NCBI GenBank assembly: GCA_030426085.1
Contig: JAUHYW010000006.1
Span: forward strand, 62,001 to 126,000
Reading direction: 5' to 3'
Source: a bacterium
GTDB lineage: Bacteria > Myxococcota_A > Bradymonadia > UBA7976 > UBA1532
DNA length: 64,000 bases
Below the pieces are notes generated by a model, which ran no database searches, was not told where the DNA came from, and worked only from the letters and a program-made list of their open reading frames with translations. Made by a program: the position numbers and the translations under genes. Shown piece by piece: positions 26,078 to 43,516 of the stretch; position 1 is the stretch's first letter, and each line of letters opens with the position of its first letter.

Positions 26078-28858
26078 TCACTGCCGGTCGCGGCACTCGC
26101 CCTCGTAGTCGATGGGCACCCCGGCGCAGTCCGCCTCGCAGCGGTTGCCGTAGGTCCGGCCGTCCTCGCCGCACACCGGGGCGTAGATCTGGGGGCAGAT
26201 GCAGCCCTCGCCGCCGCCCACGCACCAGCCGGCGCACACGTCGCACGCCGGGCAGGTCGGATCCTGCATGCAGACGTCGGCCGCGTTGCACCGCTGGTCG
26301 GGCGCGCACTCCTGCGGGCCCCGGCACAGCCGCTCGCAGGCCTCGCCGCTCCAGATCTGGCCCTCGGGGCACATCATCGGCCGCTGCTCGCCGATGCAGC
26401 CACAACCGCAGCGGTTGGAGAACGCCTCACCGCCCTCTTCGCAGGCGAAGCGGATGACCGCGCACTGCGCCGGGTCGTCGCTGACGTAGCGCACCGCCGG
26501 GTCGTCGGGGTCGGGGCACGGCTGCTCGGCGAGGATGCACCCACATCCGCAGCGGTTGGAGAACATCTCGGCGCCCTCGGGGCACTGGAACAGGATCGCG
26601 GCGCACTCGGCGGGATCGTCGCCCATGTAGTCCACCCGGGGGTCGTCGGCCGGCGGGCACATCACCGCCGGCTGGCACCGGCCGTCGATGCACTGCTCGC
26701 CGTCGGCGCAGGGGCGGTCGGGGCCGCAGCCGACGGGCGCGTCGGGGCACTCCCCCTCACCGGCGATCGCCACCCCGGCGCAGCCGGCCTCGCAGGCGTT
26801 GCCGTAGGTCCGTCCGTCGGCCCCGCACACCGGATCGTAGATCTGGGGGCAGAAGCAGCCCTCGTCGGGCACGCAGACCCCGAGCGCGCAGCGCTGACCC
26901 ACGGGGCACGGCCGCTGGTCGTCGCAGTCGGCCGGCGCGTCGGGGCACTCGCCCTCGTCGACGATCATCACCCCGGCGCAGGCCGCCTCGCAGGCGTTGC
27001 CGTAGGTCCGCCCGTCGGCCCCGCACACCGGCGCGTAGATCGCGGGGCAGACGCAGCCCTCGATGGGCACGCAGGCCCCCTCGATGCACCGCTCACCCCG
27101 GGCGCACGGCGCGTCGGGCCCGCAGGCCGGCGGCTCTTCGATCGGGCGGCACACCTCGTCGATGCACGCCAGGCCCTCGCCGCAGTCGGCGTCGTCCCGG
27201 CAGGGCACCGCCGGACACTCGCCTTCGGCCACGATGCGCACCCCGGCGCACTCCGCCTCGCAGCGGTTGCCGTAGGTCCGCCCGTCCGACCCGCAGACCG
27301 GGGCATAGACGTCGGGGCAGATGCAGCCCTCGTCGGGCCGGCACACGCCCTCGACGCAGATCTGATCGCGGGGGCAGGGGCGCTCGGGGCCGCACTCGGC
27401 GGGCTCGACGACGTCCATGCAGACCCCCTCGACGCAGCGCTGGGCCTCGCCGCAGTCGGCGTCCGCCTCGCAGGGCCGGGGCCCCTCCTGGGCGATGCAG
27501 CCGCAGCCGCAGGCGTTCGAGAAGCCCCGCTCGCCCTGGTCGCAGCCGAAGTCGATGACCGCGCACTCCAGCGGATCACGGCTGATGTAGCTCACCCGGG
27601 GGTCGTCCGGATCGGGGCACTCGGGGGCCGGGTTGCAGGCGCAGATCTCGCAGCCCCGCTCGTCGGTGCGGAACCCGAACTCGCAGAACAGCTCGCACAG
27701 CACCGGCTCGCAGACCGGCTCGTCGGGCACGCAGGCGCCGTCGACACAGCGCTCGCCCTCGGCGCACATCCCGTCGTCCCGGCACAGGCAGCGCAGCCGG
27801 CACTGGCCCTCGACGCAGGCCGCCTCGCAGTTGGCCGCGCCCGGCTGGGGGCAGTCGGCGTCGGCCTCGCACACCGGCGCCTCGCAGCGGCCCTCGCCGA
27901 CGACGTCGACCCCGGCGCACTCGGCGAAGCAGGCGTTGGGGTAGGTCTCGCCGTCGGCCCCGCACACCGGGTCGAAGTTCTCGGGGCAGATGCAGGGCTC
28001 GGCGGGCATGCAGCCGCAGCCGCACTCGCTGAAGAAGGCCTGCTCACCCGGCTCGCAGGCGAAGCGGATGCGGGCGCACTGCTCGGGGCTGTCGCCGAGG
28101 TAGCGCACCCCGGGCGCGTTCGGATCGGGGCAGTCCTCGGGGCGCGGCTGGCACTCGCAGATCGCGCAGCCCCGGTCGTCGGTGCGGAAGCCGAACTCAC
28201 AGGCCAGATCGCAGAGGAGCTCCTCGCACTCACCCGGCTCGCACTCGCCCTCGGAGGCCACGTCGACCCCCGCGCAGCGGGCCTGGCAGGCGTTGCCGTA
28301 GGTCATCCCGTCGGCCCCGCAGACCGGCATGAAGACATCGGGACAGTCACAGGCCCGGGGCCGGCAGCGGCCCTCGACGCAGCGCTCGCCCTCGGCGCAG
28401 TCGGCGTCGGCCTCGCACGCGGCGGGGCGGCACTCGACCCGGCAGGCGCCCTCGACGCAGAGGGCCCGGCAGTCGGGGTCGTCCGGCTGGGCGCAATCGT
28501 CGGCGGCGCGGCACTCGCCCTCGCCTTCCCCTTCGCCCTCGCCTTCCCCTTCGCCTTCGCCCTCGCCCTCTCCTTCGCCTTCGCCTTCGCCCTCGCCCTC
28601 GCCCTCTCCTTCGCCTTCGCCCTCGCCCTCTCCTTCGCCCTCGCCCTCTCCTTCGCCCTCGCCCTCTCCTTCGCCCTCTCCTTCGCCCTCTCCTTCGCCC
28701 TCGCCCTCTCCTTCGCCTTCCCCTTCTCCTTCACCGCCCATGCTGCCGTCGACAGTGGGTGAGCCGGCGTCTTCGTCGTCGCCGCCGGTGTCGATGTTGC
28801 AGCCGAAGAGCGCGATCGCCAGCAAGAGTGGCCAGGCGCCGAGACGTGTGACGGGCAT
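26078..28858 (-). CDS. Lipoprotein with six Kazal-type and two antistasin-like modules
   Basis: 926 residues. A signal peptide with lipobox ([10 protein letters not shown]) follows ATG 28858, which has GGGGAGGGGAG upstream. Residues about 42-114 are a Gly-Glu repeat. The rest is Cys-rich. I count six Kazal modules, each of the form PVCGADGxTYGNxCxAxCAGV. Two are antistasin-like units ([34 protein letters not shown]). Four copies of a CPDPDDPxVxY...FSNxCGCGC module are also present. Kazal and antistasin folds are serine-protease inhibitors in animals, so this may be a surface inhibitor array or a multivalent binder. Inhibition is inferred from fold; the reactive-site residues were not tested. 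Confidence 0.87.
28515..28734. repeat. Hexanucleotide repeat coding (Gly-Glu)n
   Basis: About 220 bp of imperfect GAGGGC/GAAGGC hexamers (minus-strand sense) encode some 73 alternating Gly and Glu residues between the lipid anchor and the first Cys module. It probably makes an extended, acidic stalk. Hexamer gains or losses would keep the frame, so the length may vary between strains. Confidence 0.93.
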
Positions 28859-29018
28859 ATCTCCCCCTCCCCGAGTTCTGGTGCGGAGCCGCCTGCGCGG
28901 CCCCTCGATTCGACCATGTACGCTCAGTCCGATGCTACCGCTGCGACCACCGTGACGTCCGGCGCATCACGCCCCCGGTCGCGCCCCCCGCACCATCGAG
29001 CCCGCCGTGGAGCCCGCC

Positions 29019-29210
29019 ATGAGCCCCGAAGTCGCCGCCCTCGAGGCCCGCATCGTCGAGTTGGAGATCCGCTACAGCCACCAGGACGCCACGCTGGAGA
29101 CCCTCAGCGAGCTGGTGCGGGAGCAATACGAGACCATCGAGGCGCTGCGCCGCGCGCTGAAAGCCCTGCGGGCGCAGATGGACGAGGCCCGGAGCGGGCC
29201 GCTCGGCTGA
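29019..29210 (+). CDS. slyX: SlyX family protein
   Basis: 63 residues starting at ATG 29019 (a GTG four codons upstream is also possible). The whole protein is a heptad coiled coil: ALEARIVELEIRYSHQDATL, then ETLSELVREQYETIEALRRAL. This matches SlyX in length, in the ELEIR...QD.TLE.L core, and in the second helix. SlyX function is unknown. It sits alone between two Cys-rich lipoprotein genes. Confidence 0.85.
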   Translation: MSPEVAALEARIVELEIRYSHQDATLETLSELVREQYETIEALRRALKALRAQMDEARSGPLG

Positions 29211-29220
29211 CGGGCTCCTG

Positions 29221-30468
29221 TCAGGGGAAGCAGGTGTTCCACTCCTGGGGGCAGGTCTGATCGCAGACCTGAGCCGGGATGCAGCCGGTGGCGACGGCGC
29301 AGTCCGACAGCGCGTACCACTGGAGGTAACCCAGGGCCGACGCCTGCTCGAAGCAGGCGTCGATGCACGGCTGGTCGTTGTTGTTGCAGTCGTTGAGGCA
29401 GTTGTTGAGTTGCTGGCAGCTCGAGTTGCCCTGGGGGTAGGGGATGTCGCCGAGGCAGCCGTCGAGCTCGGCCCCGCAATACGCCCGCTGGCAGGGGCCG
29501 TAATTGCCGCAGTCGTTCTCGGCGATGCACTCGAGGACCTGATCGAACTCTTCGAGGGCCGCCGCCGGCGTATTCAGGGCGCAGTCGCGGGGGCAGGCGT
29601 TGTCGCCCGCGGGGCACTCGCCGAGGCAGGTGTTGAACTGATCGCAGGTCAGGTCGGCCGCCGGGCGGGGGCCGAAGCAGGCGTCGTGCTCGGCGGCGCA
29701 CTCGAACAGCGCGCAGGTCCGATCACCGGCCGGGCACCCTTCGAACGACGCGCAGTCCCGATAGGCGTCGTGGGTCGCCCGCGCGGCCGGATCGGCCTGG
29801 GTCTGGCAGTCGGCGGCGCAGCCGAAGTCATTGCCGCAGCCCACGATGCAGGTGTCGAGCGCGGGGCAGTCCAAGCCCGGCTCACCCTCTCCTTCGCCCT
29901 CGCCCTCCCCTTCGCCCTCGCCCTCTCCTTCACCCTCGCCCTCGCCCTCGCCCTCGCCCCCGCCATCGGGCACGCAATAGTTCGAGACGTGGCACATGAA
30001 ACCGTCGGGGCAGGTCCCGTTGGGCCGGCAGAACTCGACGCAGATGGTGCCCTGCCCGGTGGCGAAGTCGACGCAGTCGTCGCCGGCGCAGTCGGTCTCG
30101 TCCTCGCACGGCGCGCCCGCCGGCAGCCCGCCCGGCTCGCCGCCGACCCCGCCCGCGCCCCCGCCCATGCCGCCCGCGCCGGGGTCGCCGCCCATCCCGC
30201 CCGCGCCGCCGCCCATGCCGCCCATGCCGGGGTCGCCGCCCATGCCGCCCGGCGTCATGTCCACCGGCGGCGGCACCTTCATGTCGACCGGGGTGACCAC
30301 GCCCCCGCTGCCTCCGGCCCCGCCCTGCCCACTCGGCGGGTCGAAGCCGAAGTCCAGCCGGGCGGCGTCGGCCGGCCCGCCGTCGGTCGGGTCGAGCGAT
30401 CCCCCGGCGCAGCCGATGAGGGTGAGGGTGAAGAGCGATGCGAGGAGGCCCGAGGGCATGCGAGACAT
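29221..30468 (-). CDS. Cys-rich lipoprotein with Gly/Met-rich and Gly-Glu repeats
   Basis: 415 residues. ATG at 30468 has AGGAG upstream, and a codon-11 Met of a longer frame is this start. The lipobox is LFTLTLIGC. Residues about 70-125 are glycine-rich (GMGGDPGAGGMGG), then a Cys module (CEDETDCAGDDC...CRPNGTCPDGFMC), then a Gly-Glu stalk (29881-29958). Four or five repeated helical Cys units of the form TCDQFNTCLGECPAGDNAC and SCQQLNNCLNDCNNNDQPC follow. The unit CxxLxxCxxxCxxxxxxC recurs in myxobacterial surface lipoproteins. Function unknown; surface binding is inferred. Confidence 0.83.
   Translation of the reverse strand: MSRMPSGLLASLFTLTLIGCAGGSLDPTDGGPADAARLDFGFDPPSGQGGAGGSGGVVTPVDMKVPPPVDMTPGGMGGDPGMGGMGGGAGGMGGDPGAGGMGGGAGGVGGEPGGLPAGAPCEDETDCAGDDCVDFATGQGTICVEFCRPNGTCPDGFMCHVSNYCVPDGGGEGEGEGEGEGEGEGEGEGEGEGEGEPGLDCPALDTCIVGCGNDFGCAADCQTQADPAARATHDAYRDCASFEGCPAGDRTCALFECAAEHDACFGPRPAADLTCDQFNTCLGECPAGDNACPRDCALNTPAAALEEFDQVLECIAENDCGNYGPCQRAYCGAELDGCLGDIPYPQGNSSCQQLNNCLNDCNNNDQPCIDACFEQASALGYLQWYALSDCAVATGCIPAQVCDQTCPQEWNTCFP
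29881..29958. repeat. Short hexanucleotide repeat coding (Gly-Glu)n
   Basis: About 78 bp of the same GAGGGC/GAAGGC hexamer family as at 28515-28734, coding an acidic Gly-Glu stalk in the next lipoprotein. The same repeat in two neighbouring, otherwise different lipoproteins suggests shared linker use or local copying. Confidence 0.88.
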
Positions 30469-30534
30469 GGCCGACTCCTGAGGGTGCTCCTTCGGCATAC
30501 CGCCACCGGCGGGGCGCCGTCCAGCGCGCCGGTA

Positions 30535-33199: not shown

Positions 33200-34084
33200 T
33201 CAGCGGAATGTGCGCCAGTATCGCGGGCGCTCGAGAACGTCAATGCATAGATGCACAATTTCCTGGTGGTTGTCGGCTATGCCGAACGCATAGGGTGGAA
33301 CACCACGCTCCGGTTCGAAGCGATAGACCGAGAAAATGGTCGGCCGATGCAATCCCTCCCTGATGGCTCTCACCAGAAAGCGTTGGCCCTCATCCGGGAT
33401 GCCGCCTCGACGCATATCTGATATCACGACATCGACGTCTTGCTTCCGGAGTATTCGAAGCGCCTCATCGGTGGTCGTAGTTTCCGAGATACTGACGCCA
33501 TGTCGTCGGAGAACGGCCGTTGTCAAATGCATGGTCTCCGGATAGTCATTAACTATCAGGACATGAGCCGAAGCAAGCCTACGATGCCCTCTCTGTGCCC
33601 GTCCGTGGAGCCCCCGGGTCCAATCGGCATCACTGGCTCGCGAGGCGGTGATTCCGAAGATGTCGCGTGTCAATCGGCCCAATAGCTCGTCCCATACTCC
33701 ATCCAGACCCTGACTCGAGTCGAGGTACCGCCGACCCTGCAAACCCGTCGGCAAGGGACATTCGTCGCAGATCAACGGTAGAATCCTGGGCGTTCCCCCT
33801 TTACGCTCGCACTTCAGAGCGAAGGCCAACTCACGTTGGACCCATTCGGATCGATTTGCAGCTCGTGACCACAGGAGGACGAGGTGGCTGCATTGAGAGA
33901 TGGACCATGCAAGTTCCCTCCAAATGTCGTCCCCTACTCGAATGTGAGCGTGATCGAGGTATGCGGGTATATGCTCACTCTCCAGTCGTTGATGGAGTTG
34001 TCGAGCCAAGAACTCATGTGAGCCGCTGAAGCTGAGGAAAACCTTCGCAGCCACTGTCCGATCTCTTTGAGCTTTACGAGCCAT
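33200..34084 (-). CDS. TIR domain fused to a response-regulator receiver domain
   Basis: 294 residues. The TIR domain (about 13-140) has KVFLSFSGSHEFLARQLHQR, a conserved middle HLVLLWSRAANRSEWVQREL with Glu85 at the usual catalytic-Glu site of TIR NADases, and LPLICDECPLP. A receiver-like domain follows at about 173-285 (HVLIVNDYPETMHLTTAVLR), with Asp180, phosphoacceptor Asp223 in VVISDM and Ser252. The conserved receiver Lys is not evident. The gene is AT-richer than its neighbours, suggesting transfer. It starts 7 bp after the FG-GAP gene's stop. It could be a phosphorylation-gated NAD+-consuming or scaffolding protein. TIR plus receiver is clear; activity is inferred. Confidence 0.82.
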   Translation of the reverse strand: MARKAQRDRTVAAKVFLSFSGSHEFLARQLHQRLESEHIPAYLDHAHIRVGDDIWRELAWSISQCSHLVLLWSRAANRSEWVQRELAFALKCERKGGTPRILPLICDECPLPTGLQGRRYLDSSQGLDGVWDELLGRLTRDIFGITASRASDADWTRGLHGRAQRGHRRLASAHVLIVNDYPETMHLTTAVLRRHGVSISETTTTDEALRILRKQDVDVVISDMRRGGIPDEGQRFLVRAIREGLHRPTIFSVYRFEPERGVPPYAFGIADNHQEIVHLCIDVLERPRYWRTFR

Positions 34085-34091
34085 AGCAATC

Positions 34092-37000
34092 TCAATCCAC
34101 GTCGATCACGTACACCGAGCCGTTGTCCCGGCCGGTGCCCTGGCCCTGGTAGGCGCCGATGATCAAGCCCGCCCGCTGGCCGAAGCGGCCGCCGCGCATC
34201 TTCTCGCCGGCCCGGCCCTCGGGGCGCCAGGTCTCGCCGACGAAGACCGCCCACGGGTTCGCCTGGAGGCGGGTGCCGGCGCCGTTGGCGACGTAGAGCC
34301 GCACGACGCCCACCCGGGGCACGCCGGCCTCGTCGCCGAACGGGCCGCCGACCGCCACCTTGCCGTCGGCGATGGCCACCGAGCTGCCGAGGCGCTCGCC
34401 GTTGAACTGGCCCTCGACGAGCCAGTCGGCGCCGTCGGGGTTGAGCGGCAGCGGGGTGCCCTCGGGGCTGCGGAACGGGATCGGGCGCGGGGGGTCGTCC
34501 TCGGTGTACCGCTGGGGGTCGGGCGTCGCGGCGAGGAGCTGGTCCCGCAGCCAGTCGCCGCGCAGGACCCACGCCCCGCCCCGGCTCTGGTTCTCGACCC
34601 GGTGGCTCACCGCGCCGATGGCCACCTCGTCGAGCCCGTCGCCGGTCAGATCGCCGGCGGCCATCGACCAGCCGGCCTGACTGTTGGCCAGCCCCGAGGT
34701 CAGCTTGAGGATACGCGGCTCGGCCGCGCCGCACTCGGGGCCGAAGCCGCCGACGATCCACGCGGCGCCCTGGTTGTTGGCGCCCTCGTCGTAGTTGATC
34801 GCGCCGTAGCCGAACTCGTCGCAGCCGTCGCCGTCGAGGTCGCCGATGCCGGTCACCGCCCGCCCGAGCTGCTCGCTGGCGCTGTCGCCGTAGGCCTTGA
34901 ACGACCGGTCGCAGAGCACCCGCACCCGGCCCTCGGGATCCGCCGGGCGGCCATAGGCCACCTCGACCGCGCCGCCGTCGCCGAAGGTGCCCCCGTCGGG
35001 GTCGGGCGGGTTGGCCCGGAAGCCACCCACGATCAGGTCGTGCAGGCCGTCGCCGTTCATGTCGAAGCCGCCGGCGGCGACCTCGGGCTGGTTGTTGGCC
35101 TCGTCGGGCCAGAAGATCCAGCTCGGGGTGGTGGCCACCGTGCCGTCGTCCCGCCCGCGGAAGATCCACAGCCCGCCCGAGTTGCTGCGGCTGTTGAGCG
35201 CCCGGTCGTCCTGACCCCGAAAGCGGTAGCGGTTGTTGTTGCCGTTCTTGCATTCGTCGGGCACCCACAGGGTGGCGTCGCCCAGGTTGAAGCGCTCGTC
35301 GTCCCGGATGAGCACGAACCAGTCGTCGAGGCCGTCGCCGTCCACGTCGCCGGCGGGCCCCATGTCCTGCATGCCGAAGTCGAACGGGGTGTGGCCGGTC
35401 CAGGTCCCGATCTCGGTCTCGGGGTCGAGCCCGATGCCGTCGGCGGTGCCCCGGTAGAGCCAGCCGGCGCCGCTGCGCATGCCGTTGCCGGTCGACATGC
35501 CGAACGGCGCGCCCACCGCGGCGTCGCCGAAGCCGTCGCCGTCCACGTCGCCGATGAGCCCCACCCCCTGGCCGAACCAGCTGTTGCCGACCGGGGTGGG
35601 CATGTCGAGCCGGGCGAGCGGGTCGCGGAACGCTTCGAGGGCCGGCTCACCGCCCTCGGGCGGCTCGACCTCGCGGGCGGGGCCGCCCGAGAACAGGAAG
35701 ACGTCGCCCACATCCCGGTTGACGGTGTCGCTGCGGTCGGCGTGCCCGGCGACGTCGGGGATGCCGTCCCCGTCGACGTCTCCGACCACCGCCAGCTCCT
35801 GGCCGAGCAGCGCGTTGCCCTCGGGGCCGGCGAGCACGATGGCCGGCTCGGCGGCGGGCAGGCCCTCCGGCTGGCCGGGGTAGATGTAGATCGCGCCGGC
35901 GTCGCCCCGCCCGGGGAAGTCGTCGACCCAGGCCCCGGTCAGCAGGTCGGGCAGGCCGTCGCCGGTGGCGTCGCCGATGGTCACCGCGAAGCCGAACTGG
36001 TCCTGGGACGACCCGCCGACGGCGGTCCAGTCGGCCTCGGCGTGCGAGGTGACCGTGGTGGCTTCGGGGGGCAGATCGCGCCCGCGCCACACGAAGAGGC
36101 CGCCGCCGTTGTTGTCGCCGGCGTTGATGGTCCGCGGGTCGTGCAGGTACGACCCCACCGCGATGTCGGCGAGGCCGTCTCCGTCGAGGTCGCCCACCCG
36201 CAGCTTGCGGGCGAAGCGGGGCTGGTTCGAGTCGCTCTGCTCGGCCAGGATCCACGACGGGCGCGGGCCGACGCCGCCCGGCCCGAGGTCGTTCGGCGGC
36301 AGGCCGCGGTAGACGAAGGCCGCGCCCGAGTTGGCCCGGTTCCGGCCGCCGTTGCGGTCGCGATAGACCTGGGTCCCGGCGACCAGATCGCAGTAGCCGT
36401 CGCCGTCCACGTCGCCCGCGCCGAGGGCCTGGCCGAGCTGCTGGTTGTTGTCGTAGAGCCAGCGCCCCTCGTCGGTGAGGCGCTGGCCGACGACGATGAC
36501 GTCGGGGTTGGCCAGGTACCCGTCGGGGTAGCCCAGCCAGATGAAGACCCCGCCCTGCTGGCCGGCGACCGTGTCGACGTTGCGGTCTTCGTAGAGCGGG
36601 GCCCCGCCGGCGATGTCGAGCAGGCCGTCGCCGTTGAAGTCGCACACCGCGACGGTCCACCCCAGGTGGTCGCCGCCGCGCACCCCGCCGAGCACGTAGT
36701 CCGGGGCCTCTTCGAAGGTGCCGTCGGGCCGCCCCCGGTACACGAGCACCGCCCCGCTGTCGTTGACCCCCACGTCCATCAGGCGGGCGCCCACCACGAG
36801 GTCGACGAAGCCGTCGCCGTCGAGGTCGGCCGAGGTGACGTCGTGCCCGAAGTAGTCGACCCGGGTGTCGGCGGCCAGGGTCTGCACCGGGGCCTCGAAG
36901 GCGCCGCCCTCGGAGTGGAAGACGTGCACCGACCCCCCGCGCCCGGACCCGTCGTTGTGCTGGGGCCCGGAGACGATCAGATCGGCGATGCCGTCGCCGT

Positions 37001-38054
37001 CGAGGTCGCCCGGCGCGTGCAGCATCTCGGTGGCGTCGGTGACGTTGAACGGCGCCATGTCGGCCCGCAGGCTGGCGACGACGTCGACCCGCACGGTGGT
37101 CTCGAGGTCGAGGAACCGGTCGGTGATCGTGAGGCTGGCCCGCCCGGGCACGAGGCCTTCGAAGTGGTCGTCGACGAAGGCCACCGTCTCGCCGCCGCCC
37201 TCGACGGCGAAGGCCCCGCTGCCCCCGTCGATGCGCAGCGGCATGCGGGCGCCCACCGGCAGGTACAGCCGGCGGGGGCGGGGCACGAGGGTCAGCTCTT
37301 CGTCGACCACCTGCACGGTGACGTCGACCGTCTCGGCGGTGCCCACGTCGATGACCCGCACGATGTCCTGCCCGGGGTCGGATCCGGCGGTGTAGGTGCC
37401 GTCGGGGGCCACCTCGCCGCCCGACAGATCCATCACCATCTGGAAGGCGAACTCGCCCGAGCCGCCGCCGATCTCGAAGGTGAAGCGCTGGTCGACCCGG
37501 ATCTGGACCCCCAGGGGCGCCACGTCCATCGGCGAGACGACCCGGATCTCGATCTCCGCTTCGCCCAGGCAGCCGTCGTCGGTCACCACGATCCGGTCGA
37601 CCGCGCCCGGCGCGTCCCCGGCGAGGTAGGCCCCGGTGAACCCGTTGAGCAGCGCGTCGGAGGCGTTCTCGGCGAAGGCGTAGCGGTAGGCCCCGGTGCC
37701 GCCGATGCCCCGCACGGTCACCAGATCGAACGGGCGGGCGGCGGTCGGATCGGCCTCGACCTGAAGCTCGGGGATGCACGGCCCGGGGCCCACCATCGCG
37801 TCCGGCTCGGGGTCGGGCGCCATGTCCGGCTCGGGATCGGGCGCGGCGTCCGGGCCCAGGTCCGGGGTCGGAGCCATGTCCGGCTCGGGATCGGGCGCCA
37901 GATCGGGATCGGGCGCCCCGTCGATGGCGCCGTCGACCGTCACCTCGGCGTCCGGCTCGAGGTCGGTCGCCTCCTGGCAACCCCACGCCCCGATCAGGAT
38001 CGAGAACACCAGCCCGGCGCCGGCGACGGGCCCCGGCCCGTGTCGATTGAACAT
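34092..38054 (-). CDS. Giant FG-GAP/integrin-alpha-like beta-propeller lipoprotein
   Basis: A 1,320-residue lipoprotein. ATG at 38054 with GGGGGAG upstream fits a signal peptide ending in a Cys (FSILIGAWGC). Upstream in-frame sequence is antisense to another gene and was rejected. An Asp-Pro-rich linker (about 30-70) leads to beta-sandwich-like repeats (about 75-345). From about residue 350 I count 12 canonical repeats with calcium-binding DxDGDG loops (GDLDGDGIADLIVSG type) plus one degenerate one, enough for more than one propeller. Such proteins bind ligands or surfaces in a calcium-dependent manner. Adhesion is inferred. Confidence 0.88.
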   Translation of the reverse strand: MFNRHGPGPVAGAGLVFSILIGAWGCQEATDLEPDAEVTVDGAIDGAPDPDLAPDPEPDMAPTPDLGPDAAPDPEPDMAPDPEPDAMVGPGPCIPELQVEADPTAARPFDLVTVRGIGGTGAYRYAFAENASDALLNGFTGAYLAGDAPGAVDRIVVTDDGCLGEAEIEIRVVSPMDVAPLGVQIRVDQRFTFEIGGGSGEFAFQMVMDLSGGEVAPDGTYTAGSDPGQDIVRVIDVGTAETVDVTVQVVDEELTLVPRPRRLYLPVGARMPLRIDGGSGAFAVEGGGETVAFVDDHFEGLVPGRASLTITDRFLDLETTVRVDVVASLRADMAPFNVTDATEMLHAPGDLDGDGIADLIVSGPQHNDGSGRGGSVHVFHSEGGAFEAPVQTLAADTRVDYFGHDVTSADLDGDGFVDLVVGARLMDVGVNDSGAVLVYRGRPDGTFEEAPDYVLGGVRGGDHLGWTVAVCDFNGDGLLDIAGGAPLYEDRNVDTVAGQQGGVFIWLGYPDGYLANPDVIVVGQRLTDEGRWLYDNNQQLGQALGAGDVDGDGYCDLVAGTQVYRDRNGGRNRANSGAAFVYRGLPPNDLGPGGVGPRPSWILAEQSDSNQPRFARKLRVGDLDGDGLADIAVGSYLHDPRTINAGDNNGGGLFVWRGRDLPPEATTVTSHAEADWTAVGGSSQDQFGFAVTIGDATGDGLPDLLTGAWVDDFPGRGDAGAIYIYPGQPEGLPAAEPAIVLAGPEGNALLGQELAVVGDVDGDGIPDVAGHADRSDTVNRDVGDVFLFSGGPAREVEPPEGGEPALEAFRDPLARLDMPTPVGNSWFGQGVGLIGDVDGDGFGDAAVGAPFGMSTGNGMRSGAGWLYRGTADGIGLDPETEIGTWTGHTPFDFGMQDMGPAGDVDGDGLDDWFVLIRDDERFNLGDATLWVPDECKNGNNNRYRFRGQDDRALNSRSNSGGLWIFRGRDDGTVATTPSWIFWPDEANNQPEVAAGGFDMNGDGLHDLIVGGFRANPPDPDGGTFGDGGAVEVAYGRPADPEGRVRVLCDRSFKAYGDSASEQLGRAVTGIGDLDGDGCDEFGYGAINYDEGANNQGAAWIVGGFGPECGAAEPRILKLTSGLANSQAGWSMAAGDLTGDGLDEVAIGAVSHRVENQSRGGAWVLRGDWLRDQLLAATPDPQRYTEDDPPRPIPFRSPEGTPLPLNPDGADWLVEGQFNGERLGSSVAIADGKVAVGGPFGDEAGVPRVGVVRLYVANGAGTRLQANPWAVFVGETWRPEGRAGEKMRGGRFGQRAGLIIGAYQGQGTGRDNGSVYVIDVD

Positions 38055-38171
38055 CTCCGTACTCCCCCGCTCTCGGTGTCGGTTTCCACCTGTAGCGTAA
38101 ATGTTACTCCCATGGACCATTCCGTTTCCGTTAAACTCCGGTGACGCTGGATCCCCAGGGAGTTCCTCCGA

Positions 38172-39701
38172 ATGTCGATGTCGCGCAAGCACTTGTACCT
38201 GCTGGCCGGGATCTGTCTGTCGATGGCGGTCGCCGGCTGCGACGACAGCGGGACGCCCGCGCCGGCCACGCCGGACGCCGCCGAGCCCGAGCCGCAGCCC
38301 GATCCCGAGCCGGAGGGCGAGCCGGAGCCGGACCCCGATCCCGAACCGGAGCCCGATCCCGAGCCCGAGCCGACGCCGGTCGATCCGGCCCGCGCGGTGG
38401 AGCCGGAGGCGCTCGTCGAGGGCGCGGTGCCGCTCGCGGTGCCCCTGCCCGACGGCCGGGTGGTGGCCCAGACCCCGACCCACATCGCCCTGATCGCGCC
38501 CGAAGGCGCCCGCGACCTCGGCGCCGAGAGCGGAGACCTCTCGGCGGCCGGGCTGGTCGACGGGCAGCTCCTCGTCTCGACCTCGACCGGCCTCTTCGCC
38601 GACGTGGACGGCGCGCTGATGCCCTCCCCGCTCGGCGACCTGCTCGACGGGATCACCGCCCTGCACACCACCGCCGACGGCGCGCTGTGGATCCTCGACG
38701 GGGGCGGGCTGCACGTCTACCGCGAGGGCCGGCTGAGCGGCGTCGACCCGGGTCCGATGGGGGCCGGCGCGATGACCGCGGTCGGGGCCTGGGGCGACAC
38801 CCCCGCGCTGTGGGTCGTCGGCGACGAGGCGCTGTACGCGGTGGGCTTCGGCGACGAGGGCCTGCGCGCGTGGGAGCTCGCCCCCGAGGCGACGGTGGAC
38901 GGGGTCGCGGTCAACGACATGGGCGGCCTGTGGATCGCCGCCGGCGGCGCGGTCAGCCACCTCGCCGACGACGGCGCCTGGACCGACCTCGTGCTGCCGT
39001 TCACGGTCGAGGCCCTCGCGGCCCACCCCGCCGCGCCCGACGTCTGGCTGGTCGGCGACGATACGCTGTGGCAGCTCCGCGACGGTCGGATCCGCCCGAT
39101 CGAGGGCGTGTCGGCCTTCTCCGGGATGCAGGGCGAGCTGGACGGATCGGTGCTCTTGTGGGGCGACATCGGCTTGCAGCGGGTGCGCCCGGGGCGCTTC
39201 GTCAGCCTCGACGGCATCGAAGAGGGCGCCATCGTCGACCGGCTGACCCCGGTCACCGTCTCGGTGACCGCGCCCGACGACGTGATCCAGCTCACGATGC
39301 GGCTCGACGACGAGGCCTCGGTGGCCCTCGAGGGCCCGCCGTTCGCCTTCGACCTCGAGCCGGGCCCGATCCCCGAGGGGGCCCACACCCTCACGGTGAC
39401 CGCCGACTACGAGGACGGCGAGCAGATCGTGGCCGAGGTGCGCTTCACGGTGCAGGGCCCGCCCACCTGGGAGGGCGACATCTCGCCGATCTTCTTCGAG
39501 CACTGCGATGCATGTCACGGCGAACGGGGTTATGCTCACCGCATGGAGACGATGGCGGTCTGGGTCGAGGAGTTCGACCAGATCATCGACGCCATCGTCG
39601 GCAATCGAATGCCGCTGCCCCCCAACCCCCCGGTCACCCCCGAGCAGCTCGAGCTGATCCGGGCGTGGGGCGAAACCGGCTACCTGAGGAGCTGGCCATG
39701 A
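38172..39701 (+). CDS. Lipoprotein with beta-propeller and C-terminal c-type heme site
   Basis: 509 residues. The lipobox is MAVAGC after MSMSRKHLYLLAGICLS; a second Met two codons in is also possible. A Pro-Glu-Asp linker runs to about residue 75. Residues about 80-360 are repeated strands with Gly-Asp turns (ALWILDGGGLHVY; LWIAAGGAVSHL; DVWLVGDDTLWQL), resembling two-component sensor-type propellers. The end holds one heme motif CDACH with a distal Met in RMPLPPNPPVTPEQLELIRA. First gene of a four-gene operon. Its TGA overlaps the next ATG by 4 bp. Confidence 0.82.
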   Translation: MSMSRKHLYLLAGICLSMAVAGCDDSGTPAPATPDAAEPEPQPDPEPEGEPEPDPDPEPEPDPEPEPTPVDPARAVEPEALVEGAVPLAVPLPDGRVVAQTPTHIALIAPEGARDLGAESGDLSAAGLVDGQLLVSTSTGLFADVDGALMPSPLGDLLDGITALHTTADGALWILDGGGLHVYREGRLSGVDPGPMGAGAMTAVGAWGDTPALWVVGDEALYAVGFGDEGLRAWELAPEATVDGVAVNDMGGLWIAAGGAVSHLADDGAWTDLVLPFTVEALAAHPAAPDVWLVGDDTLWQLRDGRIRPIEGVSAFSGMQGELDGSVLLWGDIGLQRVRPGRFVSLDGIEEGAIVDRLTPVTVSVTAPDDVIQLTMRLDDEASVALEGPPFAFDLEPGPIPEGAHTLTVTADYEDGEQIVAEVRFTVQGPPTWEGDISPIFFEHCDACHGERGYAHRMETMAVWVEEFDQIIDAIVGNRMPLPPNPPVTPEQLELIRAWGETGYLRSWP

Positions 39702-41314
39702 GGAGAACCCGCCCGGCCCGCTGGCTGGCCCTGGGCACGCTGCTGCTCGCGACGAGCGCGGCGGCCCAGATCAACGGCGGTATCGAAGACGACCCCGGCG
39801 CCGCGCTGCGCTGCGAGCCCGACTCGGTGGACATCGAGCCGGTGCGCTACCTGCGCGCGCTGAGCCTCGACCTGCGGGGCACCGTGCCCTCCGCCGAGGA
39901 GGTCGACCGCGTCCGCGAGCTGGGCGAGGTGCCCGAGGCGATGGTCGACCGCTGGCTGGAGGGCGACGACTTCGCCCAGCAGGCGGTGCGTCACCACCGG
40001 TCGCTGCTGTGGAACAATGTCGGCAACGCCCGGATCTTCAACGCCTCCTCGGGGCTGGGCGGCAACGGCACCAACCAGCCGATGTGGCGCCGCAACCGGG
40101 GCATCATGTACCGCGGCGCGACGGTGGCCTGCTTCAACCGGCCGGCGGAGTACGACCCCGAGACCGGGGCCATCCTCACCACCGAAGAGGTCCAGGCCGA
40201 CGGGCGCACCGCCCGCCGCGAGGGCTACGTCGACGTGGTGCCTTACTGGGATCCGGCCGGCACGGTGCGGGTCTGCGCCTTCGACGCCCAGGACGTCGAG
40301 TTCAGCCCCAGCGGCACCGAGTGCAAGACCGCGGCGGGCAACAACGACCCCGAGTGCGGCTGCGGCCCCAACCTGCGGTGGTGCAACGGGCGCAACGCGC
40401 AGGCGGCCACCGTCGACTCGATGGGCGAGGCGCTCGACCGGCTGATGTTCGACATCTTCCGCCGGGATGCGCCCTACACCGAGCTGTTCACCAGCCGCAA
40501 AGCCTTCGTCAACGGCCCGCTGTCGTACTTCTGGTACCACCAGACGCTGCGCGGCCCGGGGCTGGTCTTCGAGCCCAAGCCGGTCGCGCTCGAGACGCTG
40601 CCCGAGATGCAGTGGGCCGAGCGGGACACCTGGGTCGAGATCGAGCTGCCCTCGCACCACGCCGGGGTGCTGACCCGGCCGGCGTTCCTGCTGCGGTTCC
40701 AGACCAACCGGGCCCGGGCGAACCGGTTCTACGATGCCTTCCTCTGCCAGCCGTTCAACCCGCCCGACGGGGGGCTGCCGGTGGCCGACGAGGAGAGCGC
40801 CCGCAACCCCGACCTCCAGCTCCGGGCGGGCTGCAAGTACTGCCACGCGCTGCTCGAGCCGGCCGCCTCGCACTGGGGCCGGTGGACCGAGCAGGGCATC
40901 GGCTACCTCGACCCGGCCGGCTTCCCCCAGACCCGGGCCGACTGCGAGGCCTGCGCGCTGCGGGGCCAGGGGTGCAGCGGCGAGTGCCGCAACTTCTACG
41001 TCACCCAGGCCCTCGCCCCCGAGGAGGAGCAGTTCCTCGGGCAGCTCAACGCCTACTACTTCCGGCGCGACGACCACGTCGTCAACGTCGAGCAGGGCCC
41101 GCGCTACCTCGCGCTGACCGGCGTCGCCGACAACCGCATGCCCACCTGCGTCGCGAAGCGCACCGGCGAGTGGCTGCTCGGCCGCGCGCTGGACCAGGAC
41201 GGCGACGAGAAGTGGATCGACAGCCTCGCCCGCGACTTCGTGCAGGACGGCTACAGCTTCCGGGCGCTGGTCAAGCGCATCGTGTCGAATCCCCGCTACT
41301 GGAGGGTCCGATGA
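39698..41314 (+). CDS. DUF1549/DUF1585-like exported protein with c-type heme motif
   Basis: 538 residues. A cleavable signal (WLALGTLLLATSAAAQ) precedes the DUF1549-like opening VRYLRALSLDLRGTVPSAEE. One heme-binding motif, CKYCH, sits near residue 384, with other Cys clusters (CGCGPNLRWC; CEACALRGQGCSGEC). The end, WIDSLARDFVQDGYSFRALV then KRIVSNPRYW, resembles DUF1585. In planctomycetes and deltaproteobacteria such cytochrome-like proteins are paired with DUF1501 proteins, as here. Biochemical role unknown. ATGA overlaps exist on both sides. Confidence 0.83.
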   Translation: MRRTRPARWLALGTLLLATSAAAQINGGIEDDPGAALRCEPDSVDIEPVRYLRALSLDLRGTVPSAEEVDRVRELGEVPEAMVDRWLEGDDFAQQAVRHHRSLLWNNVGNARIFNASSGLGGNGTNQPMWRRNRGIMYRGATVACFNRPAEYDPETGAILTTEEVQADGRTARREGYVDVVPYWDPAGTVRVCAFDAQDVEFSPSGTECKTAAGNNDPECGCGPNLRWCNGRNAQAATVDSMGEALDRLMFDIFRRDAPYTELFTSRKAFVNGPLSYFWYHQTLRGPGLVFEPKPVALETLPEMQWAERDTWVEIELPSHHAGVLTRPAFLLRFQTNRARANRFYDAFLCQPFNPPDGGLPVADEESARNPDLQLRAGCKYCHALLEPAASHWGRWTEQGIGYLDPAGFPQTRADCEACALRGQGCSGECRNFYVTQALAPEEEQFLGQLNAYYFRRDDHVVNVEQGPRYLALTGVADNRMPTCVAKRTGEWLLGRALDQDGDEKWIDSLARDFVQDGYSFRALVKRIVSNPRYWRVR

Positions 41315-42072
41315 ACCGCGCAACCGTCGCGCTCTGCGCGCTGCTCGCCGCCTCGCTGGCGGCGTGTGACCCCGACACCGCCCCGACGCCGACCCCGGCC
41401 CCGGAGCAGCCCGAGCAGCCCGAGCCCGAGCAGCCCGAGCCTGAGCAGCCCGAGCAGCCCGAGACGCCGGAGCGGCCCGAGGCCCCCGAGGAGACCCGCC
41501 CGGTGCCCGCACCGGTCGACGTCGACACCGTCGGCGACCGGCCGGCCGAGCTCGCCCCGGCCCCCGAGCCGTGGCAGGCCCCGGCCCGCGCCCGGCGGCG
41601 CATGAACATCGACCAGCTCGACGCCGCCTTCCGCCGCACCAGCGGGGGCATCGGCTGGACCGAGACCCGGGGCAACCGCGAGGTCAACCTCTTCGAAGAG
41701 CTCTCGGCGACCCTCGGCAAGCCGGACTACATCCAGATCACCAACGAGAGCCTCGAGCCCTCGGCGCTGTTCCAGAAGTTCCTCGACGACGCCGCCCGGC
41801 AGGTGTGCGCCCGCATGATCGAGGCCGATCAGGCCCGGGGTGCTACGCCCATCCTGCTGCCGGTGGCCGACGAGGCCGGAGAGATGGACGTCGACCGGCA
41901 CCTGCAAGGGCTGCTGCTGCGGTTCCACAATCGGGACCTGTCGCTCGACTCGCCCGATCTGATGCACTGGCGCTGGCTGTACGACACCTCGACGTTCGTC
42001 GGGGACGAGGTCACCGCCTGGCAGGCGATCTGCGCCACGCTCTTCACCCACCCCGACTTCTACAGCTACTGA
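41311..42072 (+). CDS. Lipoprotein of the DUF1501 operon, function unknown
   Basis: 253 residues. The lipobox is LLAASLAAC. A Pro-Glu-Gln-rich linker (EQPEQPEPEQPEPEQPEQPE) runs to about residue 75. A folded domain at 95-253 contains RRMNIDQLDAAFRRTSGGIG, FLDDAARQVCARMI and HLQGLLLRFHNRDL. That arrangement resembles the helical cytochrome-like subunits of DUF1549 clusters, but there is no CxxCH. ATG at 41311 overlaps the previous TGA. The next gene starts 10 bp downstream. Confidence 0.78.
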   Translation: MNRATVALCALLAASLAACDPDTAPTPTPAPEQPEQPEPEQPEPEQPEQPETPERPEAPEETRPVPAPVDVDTVGDRPAELAPAPEPWQAPARARRRMNIDQLDAAFRRTSGGIGWTETRGNREVNLFEELSATLGKPDYIQITNESLEPSALFQKFLDDAARQVCARMIEADQARGATPILLPVADEAGEMDVDRHLQGLLLRFHNRDLSLDSPDLMHWRWLYDTSTFVGDEVTAWQAICATLFTHPDFYSY

Positions 42073-42082
42073 GGAGGCACCG

Positions 42083-43516
42083 ATGGCCCGCACTCGCATC
42101 TCGCGCCGCGGCTTCCTCCGCGGGGCCCTCGTCGCCGGCGGCGGACTCGCCGCGCTCGGCGGCGGGGTCCACACCCTGACCCGGCTGGCCAACGCGCAGG
42201 TCGACAACCCCGACGCGCCCGACCGGTACTACATCTTCGCGTACTTCCCCGGGGCGTGGGACGTGCTGCTGGGGCTCGACCCCCGGGACCCGCGCACGTT
42301 CACCAACGGCAACCTGCGCACCACCCGCATCCAGCCGGGCTACGAGCTGGTCGAGCTGGACGCCGCCGACCTCGTGCGGGTGCCCACCGCGGCCGGCCCG
42401 GAGATGGTCTTCGGCCCCTACATCGGCGAGCTGACCCGGCACGTCGACCGGCTGGCGGTCATCCGCGGCATGTCGATGGACACCCTGACCCACGAGGTCG
42501 GCCGGCGGCGCTTCCTGACCGGCAAGCCGCCCAGCGGCCTGCAAGCCCGGGGCAGCTCGGCCGGCACCTGGCTGGCGGGGCACTTCGGGGGCAAGGAGCC
42601 CATCCCTCAGCTCTCGGTGCAGGTCGAGGCCTACAATACGAAGCTGCCCGACTACGCCACCGCGCTGGCGGTCAACAGCGTCGACGACCTGCTGCGGGCC
42701 CTGCGCCCGGCCGACCCGACCTTCGACTGGCGCATCGCCCGCCAGATGTCGGCCACGCTCGCCGAGCAGGCCCGCTGCCTGCGGGCCGAGCCGTCGCCGC
42801 TGTGGCAGAGCGCCGAGGGCGGGCGGGTCAAGGCCCGGGAGATGGTCACCGGGGGCTACGCGGACGCGTTCGACTTCCGGGCGCTCAACCCGCTGATGAA
42901 CGAGCTGCGGGACCACTACGGCATCACCAACCGCAACCAGCTCAACGTGCCCGAGGCCCGGGCCGCGCTGGCGGTGCAGGCGATCACGACCGGCATCAGC
43001 CGGGTGGTGAACATCACGGTGACCCCCAGCCTCGACACCCACTTCCAGGACTGGGAGACCGACCAGGGCCCCGACCAGCGGCGGGGCTTCGACTGCATCG
43101 CCCGCATGGCCGACATGCTCGAGCGGCTGCCCTACGGCAACACCGGCGAGAGCTGGCTCGACCGGACCACCATCGTCGGCTTCAGCGAGTTCAGCCGGAC
43201 CCCGCTGATCAACACCCGCGGCGGCCGGGACCACCACCTGACCAACTCCTGCTTCCTGCTCGGCGGCAGCGTCAAGGGCGGCCGGGTCATCGGCGCGAGC
43301 AGCGACGTCGGCATGGCGCCCCAGGCGGTCGACCTGCACACCGGCGCGCTGGACCCCGAGGGCGAGGTCATCCGCCCGGAGCACGTCATCCAGAGCCTCT
43401 TCGACGAGGTCGGCGTGCCCTTCGCCGACAGCGACCTGCGGGTGCCCGAGTGCCGGGCCGACCTGCTCGACGACTGCGCCGAGCAGACGATCGCGATCCC
43501 GGCCCTGCTCGGCTGA
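42083..43516 (+). CDS. DUF1501 family protein, Tat-exported
   Basis: 477 residues. A Tat signal (RISRRGFLRGALVAGGGLAALGG) has the twin-Arg motif. The rest matches DUF1501: YYIFAYFPGAWDVLLGLDPR, RGMSMDTLTHEVGRRRFLTG, FDCIARMADMLERLPYGNTG and EFSRTPLINTRGGRDHHLTN. DUF1501 belongs to the alkaline-phosphatase/sulfatase-like fold, but the real activity is unknown. It closes the four-gene operon starting at 38172 and probably folds in the cytoplasm with a cofactor or metal before export. Confidence 0.92.
   Translation: MARTRISRRGFLRGALVAGGGLAALGGGVHTLTRLANAQVDNPDAPDRYYIFAYFPGAWDVLLGLDPRDPRTFTNGNLRTTRIQPGYELVELDAADLVRVPTAAGPEMVFGPYIGELTRHVDRLAVIRGMSMDTLTHEVGRRRFLTGKPPSGLQARGSSAGTWLAGHFGGKEPIPQLSVQVEAYNTKLPDYATALAVNSVDDLLRALRPADPTFDWRIARQMSATLAEQARCLRAEPSPLWQSAEGGRVKAREMVTGGYADAFDFRALNPLMNELRDHYGITNRNQLNVPEARAALAVQAITTGISRVVNITVTPSLDTHFQDWETDQGPDQRRGFDCIARMADMLERLPYGNTGESWLDRTTIVGFSEFSRTPLINTRGGRDHHLTNSCFLLGGSVKGGRVIGASSDVGMAPQAVDLHTGALDPEGEVIRPEHVIQSLFDEVGVPFADSDLRVPECRADLLDDCAEQTIAIPALLG

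Follow-up and report, generated by a model that had tools for sequence, protein, structure and literature searches.

A protein joining a TIR domain to a degenerate receiver as a candidate phosphorylation-independent, NAD+-directed effector

The protein P0001, encoded by a single intact frame with an ATG start, joins an N-terminal TIR domain with a catalytic-type Glu to a C-terminal receiver domain with a degenerate active site. The gene was analyzed within a window of 64 kb, which is the whole stretch of DNA under study. We read P0001 as a horizontally acquired stand-alone TIR effector of the bacterial immune/conflict type, probably anti-phage and NAD+-directed, which would be gated by a phosphorylation-independent pseudo-receiver, and we assign this reading a probability of roughly 45%. 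In the proposed mechanism, the TIR domain would cleave NAD+, possibly yielding a cyclic ADP-ribose, and the pseudo-receiver would bind a ligand or a partner, acting as a switch without phosphorylation. Through its state, the pseudo-receiver would control how the TIR domain self-assembles; assembly would activate the enzyme and lead to either NAD+ depletion or a cADPR signal. We infer the NADase activity, the switch, this direction of control, and the anti-phage role. In the relatives, the same receiver would act as the switch while anchored in the membrane, and the TIR may be a separate gene; in P0001, the TIR would take the place of the anchor. The patchy distribution, the foreign composition, a synteny break, and the conflict-type neighbors and fusions were counted for the effector reading, whereas the non-defense neighborhood, the membrane-anchored receivers (TM-receivers) without effector neighbors, and two DNA-binding members of the receiver family (L141 and L155) speak against it. 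Table 1 summarizes the features of the gene.

Table 1. Features of the P0001 gene and their positions in the window
Feature	Position	Strand	Remarks
TIR-receiver fusion CDS (P0001)	33200..34084	-	294 aa + stop; GC3 0.59; mean pLDDT 84
TIR domain, aa 15-129	33698..34042	-	Pfam TIR_2 1.9e-22; modelled strands 15-18, 41-43, 67-72, 100-105
W81-x3-E85 (W81-V-Q-R-E85), start of helix alpha-C, catalytic-type Glu	33830..33844	-	modelled helix 80-94
Interdomain linker (disordered aa 146-159) and connecting helix (aa 152-171)	33572..33649	-	pLDDT <50 at 146-159
Pseudo-receiver domain, aa 174-285	33230..33565	-	Response_reg match; alpha-4 region shrunk to a loop
Asn179-Asp180, beta-1 acidic pair, one acid replaced by Asn	33545..33550	-	alignment
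Asp223 (S222-D223-M224), phosphoacceptor position, kept	33416..33418	-	alignment
AFGIADN loop, aa 266-272, site expected for the conserved Lys; no Lys	33269..33289	-	alignment
Gap between P0001 and the large FG-GAP gene	34085..34091	.	7 bp, after the FG-GAP stop codon

The TIR fold is that of immune "suicide" enzymes. The initial annotation had described a TIR domain with a catalytic-type Glu85 in the motif WVQREL, and both were confirmed; the TIR_2 score of P0001 reached 80.4 bits against a curated gathering cut-off of 28, and W81 and E85 form a WxxxE motif. Chain 7uxr has its Trp and Glu at the positions aligned with these two residues. Additionally, S18, G51, and E85 are invariant in nine aligned TIRs, and the P0001 TIR also keeps D44. 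In AbTir, NAD+ cleavage requires the Glu (E208), the Trp (W204), a BB-region Asp, and the strand A Ser (PMC11374754). Because W81 and E85 are conserved and their AbTir equivalents are required for cleavage, the P0001 TIR is predicted from its sequence to be plausibly competent as a NADase of the WxxxE catalytic type. The best Foldseek match of the TIR half was SPARTA TIR-APAZ, and animal TIRs, including SARM1, were among the best matches.

The genome carrying P0001 (10.1 Mb) is TIR-rich, and the P0001 TIR is the strongest of its 35 TIR_2 matches. Many of these matches lie in frames of 700-1200 aa, which are probably TIR plus NTPase/repeat proteins. A receiver of the P0001 type was absent from all 30 loci examined (30/30) among the other TIR proteins of the genome. 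The closest TIR in the phylum to that of P0001 belongs to a TIR-HEAT-repeat protein (L025:1522-2382; TIR_2 2.3e-26, HEAT_2 3.6e-8). Beyond the window, the same genome has a gene for a membrane-type histidine kinase (HATPase_c 8e-28) that is followed immediately, in the same orientation, by the gene of a large TIR-containing protein (L072, G000:C11:55848-59141), and the two genes are possibly a real kinase-TIR pair.

In the receiver half, Pfam Response_reg matched aa 175-228 of P0001 (E 6.1e-8, 33.3 bits versus a cut-off of 30.2), and the assignment of Asp223 to the phosphoacceptor position held in the alignment. The canonical set of five active-site residues (DD, D, T/S, K) is incomplete. Besides the Asn of the acidic pair, the Thr of receivers is missing, with Val253 at its place by the CheY register and Ser252 one position earlier, and the Lys reported earlier as not evident is truly absent from the alignment. 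Because of Asn179 and the missing Thr and Lys, the domain is a pseudo-receiver by the definition of PMC12632262. The earlier suspicion of an atypical, phosphorylation-independent receiver is supported by the same residues and by its closest relatives, which are kinase-less orphan receivers.

Structure prediction, which had been named as the check for both domains, returned a TIR-like and a receiver-like fold with AlphaFold and Foldseek. The AlphaFold model, computed from an alignment of 14 rows, placed most of both domains above a pLDDT of 90, and its pTM of 0.52 does not fix the relative arrangement of the two domains. In the modelled receiver, the segment joining beta-4 (249-252) to beta-5 (268-270) contains no helix of at least four residues. 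As a result of the Foldseek search, the receiver half matched many response regulators with a target-normalized TM-score of about 0.8.

The nearest receiver in the phylum belongs to a membrane-anchored protein (L024 in G293) with 38% identity to P0001. A profile made from these two receivers retrieved further members from Chloroflexia (L094), Streptomyces (L095), and Bradyrhizobium (L096), and a fusion with a KAP NTPase (L097). The L094 and P0001 receivers have the common ends 'GLHRPT.F.V..F.P.RGVP..AFGI....' and 'DVLER.R'. The conserved Lys was found in 0 of the 15 aligned family members, whereas it is present in both outgroup receivers; the P0001 clade is marked by SDMxR, an AFGITN-type loop, and a LERxR end. 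In the receiver tree, P0001 was grouped with the TM-receivers L095, L094, and L024 with a support of 100/99. The family members are orphans with no adjoining kinase, spread across phyla, and mostly membrane-anchored. The orphan TM-receivers, such as those of L094, L095, and E. coli (WP_000433086), thus have the Lys-less subfamily and the lack of an adjoining kinase in common with P0001, but they carry the N-terminal membrane helix that is usual in the subfamily; in P0001 and in a second fusion protein (L142), a TIR stands there instead. Pfam covers this subfamily only as Response_reg, and we know of no name for it.

The E. coli member was found by tblastn; it carries the annotation 'response regulator' and occurs in 26 of 5426 complete genomes. 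Its gene is flanked by yfgI and guaA and accompanied by an AAA ATPase gene (AAA_15-type) and an integrase remnant (L109/L110). A relative of this TM-receiver (L141/L150) also adjoins guaA in the genome G1257. In the phylum around the Chloroflexia member, 4 of 350 genomes carry the family at E 1e-10, and this sparse distribution fits mobile accessory genes. The broader receiver family was detected on eight IMG/VR viral contigs; no receivers of the P0001 clade were found on viral contigs, and none of the TIR relatives of P0001 on such contigs carries a receiver.

The genomic contexts of the Lys-less receivers are mixed, and the family is often, but not always, partnered with conflict-type genes. 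In Streptomyces, L097:4228-6384 encodes a kinase-free fusion in which a Lys-less receiver forms the C-terminal part of a KAP P-loop NTPase. The Bradyrhizobium locus contains a HEPN-type DUF4145-like gene and L152 a PLD-like gene, each by a weak match, and L165 encodes a GAF protein carrying two receivers of the family. In L119, the gene upstream of the receiver gene was considered as a TIR; its weak profile match (probability 60) with no Pfam hit leaves this unproven. Several TM-receivers have no recognizable effector neighbor, and L141 and L155 combine a winged helix, a membrane helix, and the Lys-less receiver, in the reverse of the OmpR-type domain order; the family is therefore not exclusively conflict-related.

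The main rival reading takes the receiver as an enzyme or sensor for the product of the TIR domain, either cyclic ADP-ribose or a cyclic phosphate, which would end or read the signal as proposed for cREC domains (PF20274). Divergent kinase-free receivers linked to NAD+/ADP-ribose enzymes, with the catalytic Asp kept, have been proposed as cyclic-phosphate processors (cRec, PMC7824862), a role that is itself a proposal. P0001 resembles them in its divergent receiver, the lack of a histidine kinase, the link to an NAD+/ADPR enzyme, and the kept Asp, and TIR enzymes occur either in one protein or in one operon with receivers keeping this Asp. However, P0001 gave no PF20274 match up to E = 1, for which reason membership in cREC was rejected; the first acid of its pair is Asn, and among the relatives only the E. 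coli one matches PF20274, weakly (18 of 27 bits). We consider this reading unlikely. A quite unlikely further proposal is a self-contained circuit, in which the receiver would bind or hydrolyze an ADP-ribose derivative produced by its own TIR, working as a feedback switch or a terminator. If true, it would provide a direct ligand or substrate for pseudo-receivers, and the receiver-gated TIR immune proteins would constitute a new class that arose independently in at least two phyla.

The initial annotation had also proposed that the fusion would tie the TIR activity to two-component phosphorylation, a claim that is not supported given Asn179, the missing Lys and Thr, the absence of the Lys throughout the aligned family, and the lack of a kinase nearby. 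The remark that no kinase is adjacent was correct, as the window contains no HATPase_c match and the nearest one on the contig lies about 38 kb away, although orphan regulators lack a neighboring kinase as well. The degenerate receiver could still be phosphorylated if a distant histidine kinase acted on D223 and thereby activated or silenced the TIR. Such control would resemble Detocs, which was published as a 'defence two-component system' (PMC9966839); D223 and D180 are kept, and the host genome has 95 HATPase_c matches. Such distant control is less likely because the active-site residues of the receiver are missing, with no Lys or Thr and an Asn for one acid; moreover, the alpha-4 region is lost, the relatives are orphans across phyla, and no Detocs-type neighbors accompany P0001. 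We regard it as decidedly unlikely. Detocs likewise links a receiver to a suicide effector, but it requires a sensor kinase and has an ATP nucleosidase effector in the published cases, and neither occurs at P0001. Membership in Detocs was rejected due to the lack of an adjacent sensor kinase, the lack of a PNP match, and the TIR nature of the effector.

The P0001 gene has a GC content of 56.5% and a GC3 of 0.59, versus 69-75% and 0.95-0.97 in its neighbors, and it is the lowest-GC stretch of 885 bp in the window (mean 72.9%, sd 3.5). It had been described as an AT-rich island right behind a large FG-GAP lipoprotein gene; the spacing and the composition were both verified, whereas the island itself is compatible with the data but unproven, as the synteny break is one-sided. 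From 34091 to 42561, on the side of the FG-GAP gene, the window is collinear with the sole same-genus genome (G006) over about 8.6 kb at 82.7% nucleotide identity. The collinearity ends at the FG-GAP stop codon (34091), and nothing to the left of it is collinear in the stretch compared. At the position corresponding to P0001, G006 carries a different, convergent gene (PAS/kinase/receiver), and the RimK, AstE, and GtrA genes on the other side of P0001 are likewise not collinear. Because G006 is collinear on one side only, a single-gene insertion and a larger rearrangement are inseparable, and a clean one-gene insertion was not demonstrable. The low GC3 and the GC minimum of the window mark the gene as a recent acquisition.

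The genes immediately flanking P0001 (RimK ligase, AstE-like, GtrA, and FG-GAP lipoprotein) have housekeeping or surface roles and do not form a defense island. This neighborhood would agree with both domains being an inactive interaction scaffold in ordinary signaling with no defense link, as would the DNA-binding domains of some receiver-family members and the number of TIRs in the genome, not all of which are necessarily enzymes. However, W81, E85, D44, and S18 are kept despite the fast sequence divergence of TIRs, and the foreign composition and patchy distribution fit conflict genes better, which makes the scaffold distinctly improbable.

The fusion had been proposed for a search in other genomes, and the outcome was divided: the phylum genomes yielded no orthologue, but a second TIR-receiver protein (L142) was found in Pseudomonadota by scanning 398 genomes of the phylum around the Bradyrhizobium member with P0001. 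Its frame of 335 aa (317 aa from the ATG, in L149) has the same domain order as P0001 (TIR_2 8.4e-27, Response_reg 1.5e-8) and aligns with it over the full length (25%, 2e-20). In the receiver tree, L142 was placed with the E. coli protein and L115 with a support of 88/99, or 96/99 in the tree with outgroups. Constraining P0001 and L142 to one clade was 40.9 log-likelihood units worse (AU p 9.9e-5). Because this test rejects a single clade, the simplest reading of the sequences is that the TIR-receiver fusion formed separately at least twice, in two phyla, with a long P0001 branch (1.27) and a small sample. The second fusion suggests a real, little-studied mode of control of TIR enzymes.

No orthologue of the whole fusion was found in 13 family genomes, 379 phylum genomes, GTDB species contigs, or phages; in plasmids, the matches were TIR-only or receiver-only, and P0002 had no plasmid match. 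This absence (0/13 and 0/379) might indicate that two unrelated genes were joined by chance within a low-GC insertion and that their fusion is decaying. However, the frame is uninterrupted, each domain keeps its conserved motifs and its fold, and L142 shows that such a pairing also arose separately, so that we hold this origin to be highly improbable. In the open-access literature searched, no description of a TIR-receiver fusion or of its receiver subfamily was found, although domain-architecture databases may well list some such fusions.

A related arrangement was found in L115, where a CAP12-PCTIR_TIR gene (8.6e-23) and a gene for a two-TM receiver share 4 bp, the end of the former lying over the start of the latter. 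The pair (L115:2997-4375) adjoins an Eco57I-type methylase gene and is a candidate two-gene defense system.

We also compared P0001 with further known systems. Its best PADLOC match concerned only the TIR component of a different system. The TIR effectors of CAP12/Pycsar and ThsB of Thoeris are NADase-type TIRs, as the P0001 domain is predicted to be, and belong to anti-phage systems; however, the former are controlled by a cyclic-nucleotide synthase and ThsB acts with ThsA, whereas P0001 has no such partner genes. Membership in Thoeris was rejected, since the ThsB_TIR score was 19.5 versus 21.2 bits and no ThsA was present among the flanking genes examined. The receiver effectors of the iSTAND2/TERNS3/VMAP ternary systems are kinase-free and proposed as nucleotide-responsive switches, with TIR as an alternative effector (PMC8195603, PMC7159879). 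P0001 shares with them a kinase-free receiver in a putative conflict setting, but these systems are multi-gene and NTPase-based, and none of their partners was recognized beside P0001.

The broad idea of kinase-free, possibly nucleotide-responsive receivers in NAD+/nucleotide conflict systems is already published (PMC7159879, PMC8195603, PMC7824862), and the switching mechanisms of pseudo-receivers have been called a mystery (PMC12632262). Because the loss of NAD+ is a simple readout, the fusion makes the switching of a pseudo-receiver directly testable within a single small protein. Should the ligand of the switch prove to be a nucleotide or ADP-ribose, this would support the role proposed for receivers without kinases in conflict systems and contribute a further class of TIR regulators.

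Elsewhere in the window, two lipoprotein-like genes on the minus strand (26078-30498) contain long (EG)n/GEGE repeats, and one of them has many Kazal-like cysteine repeats.
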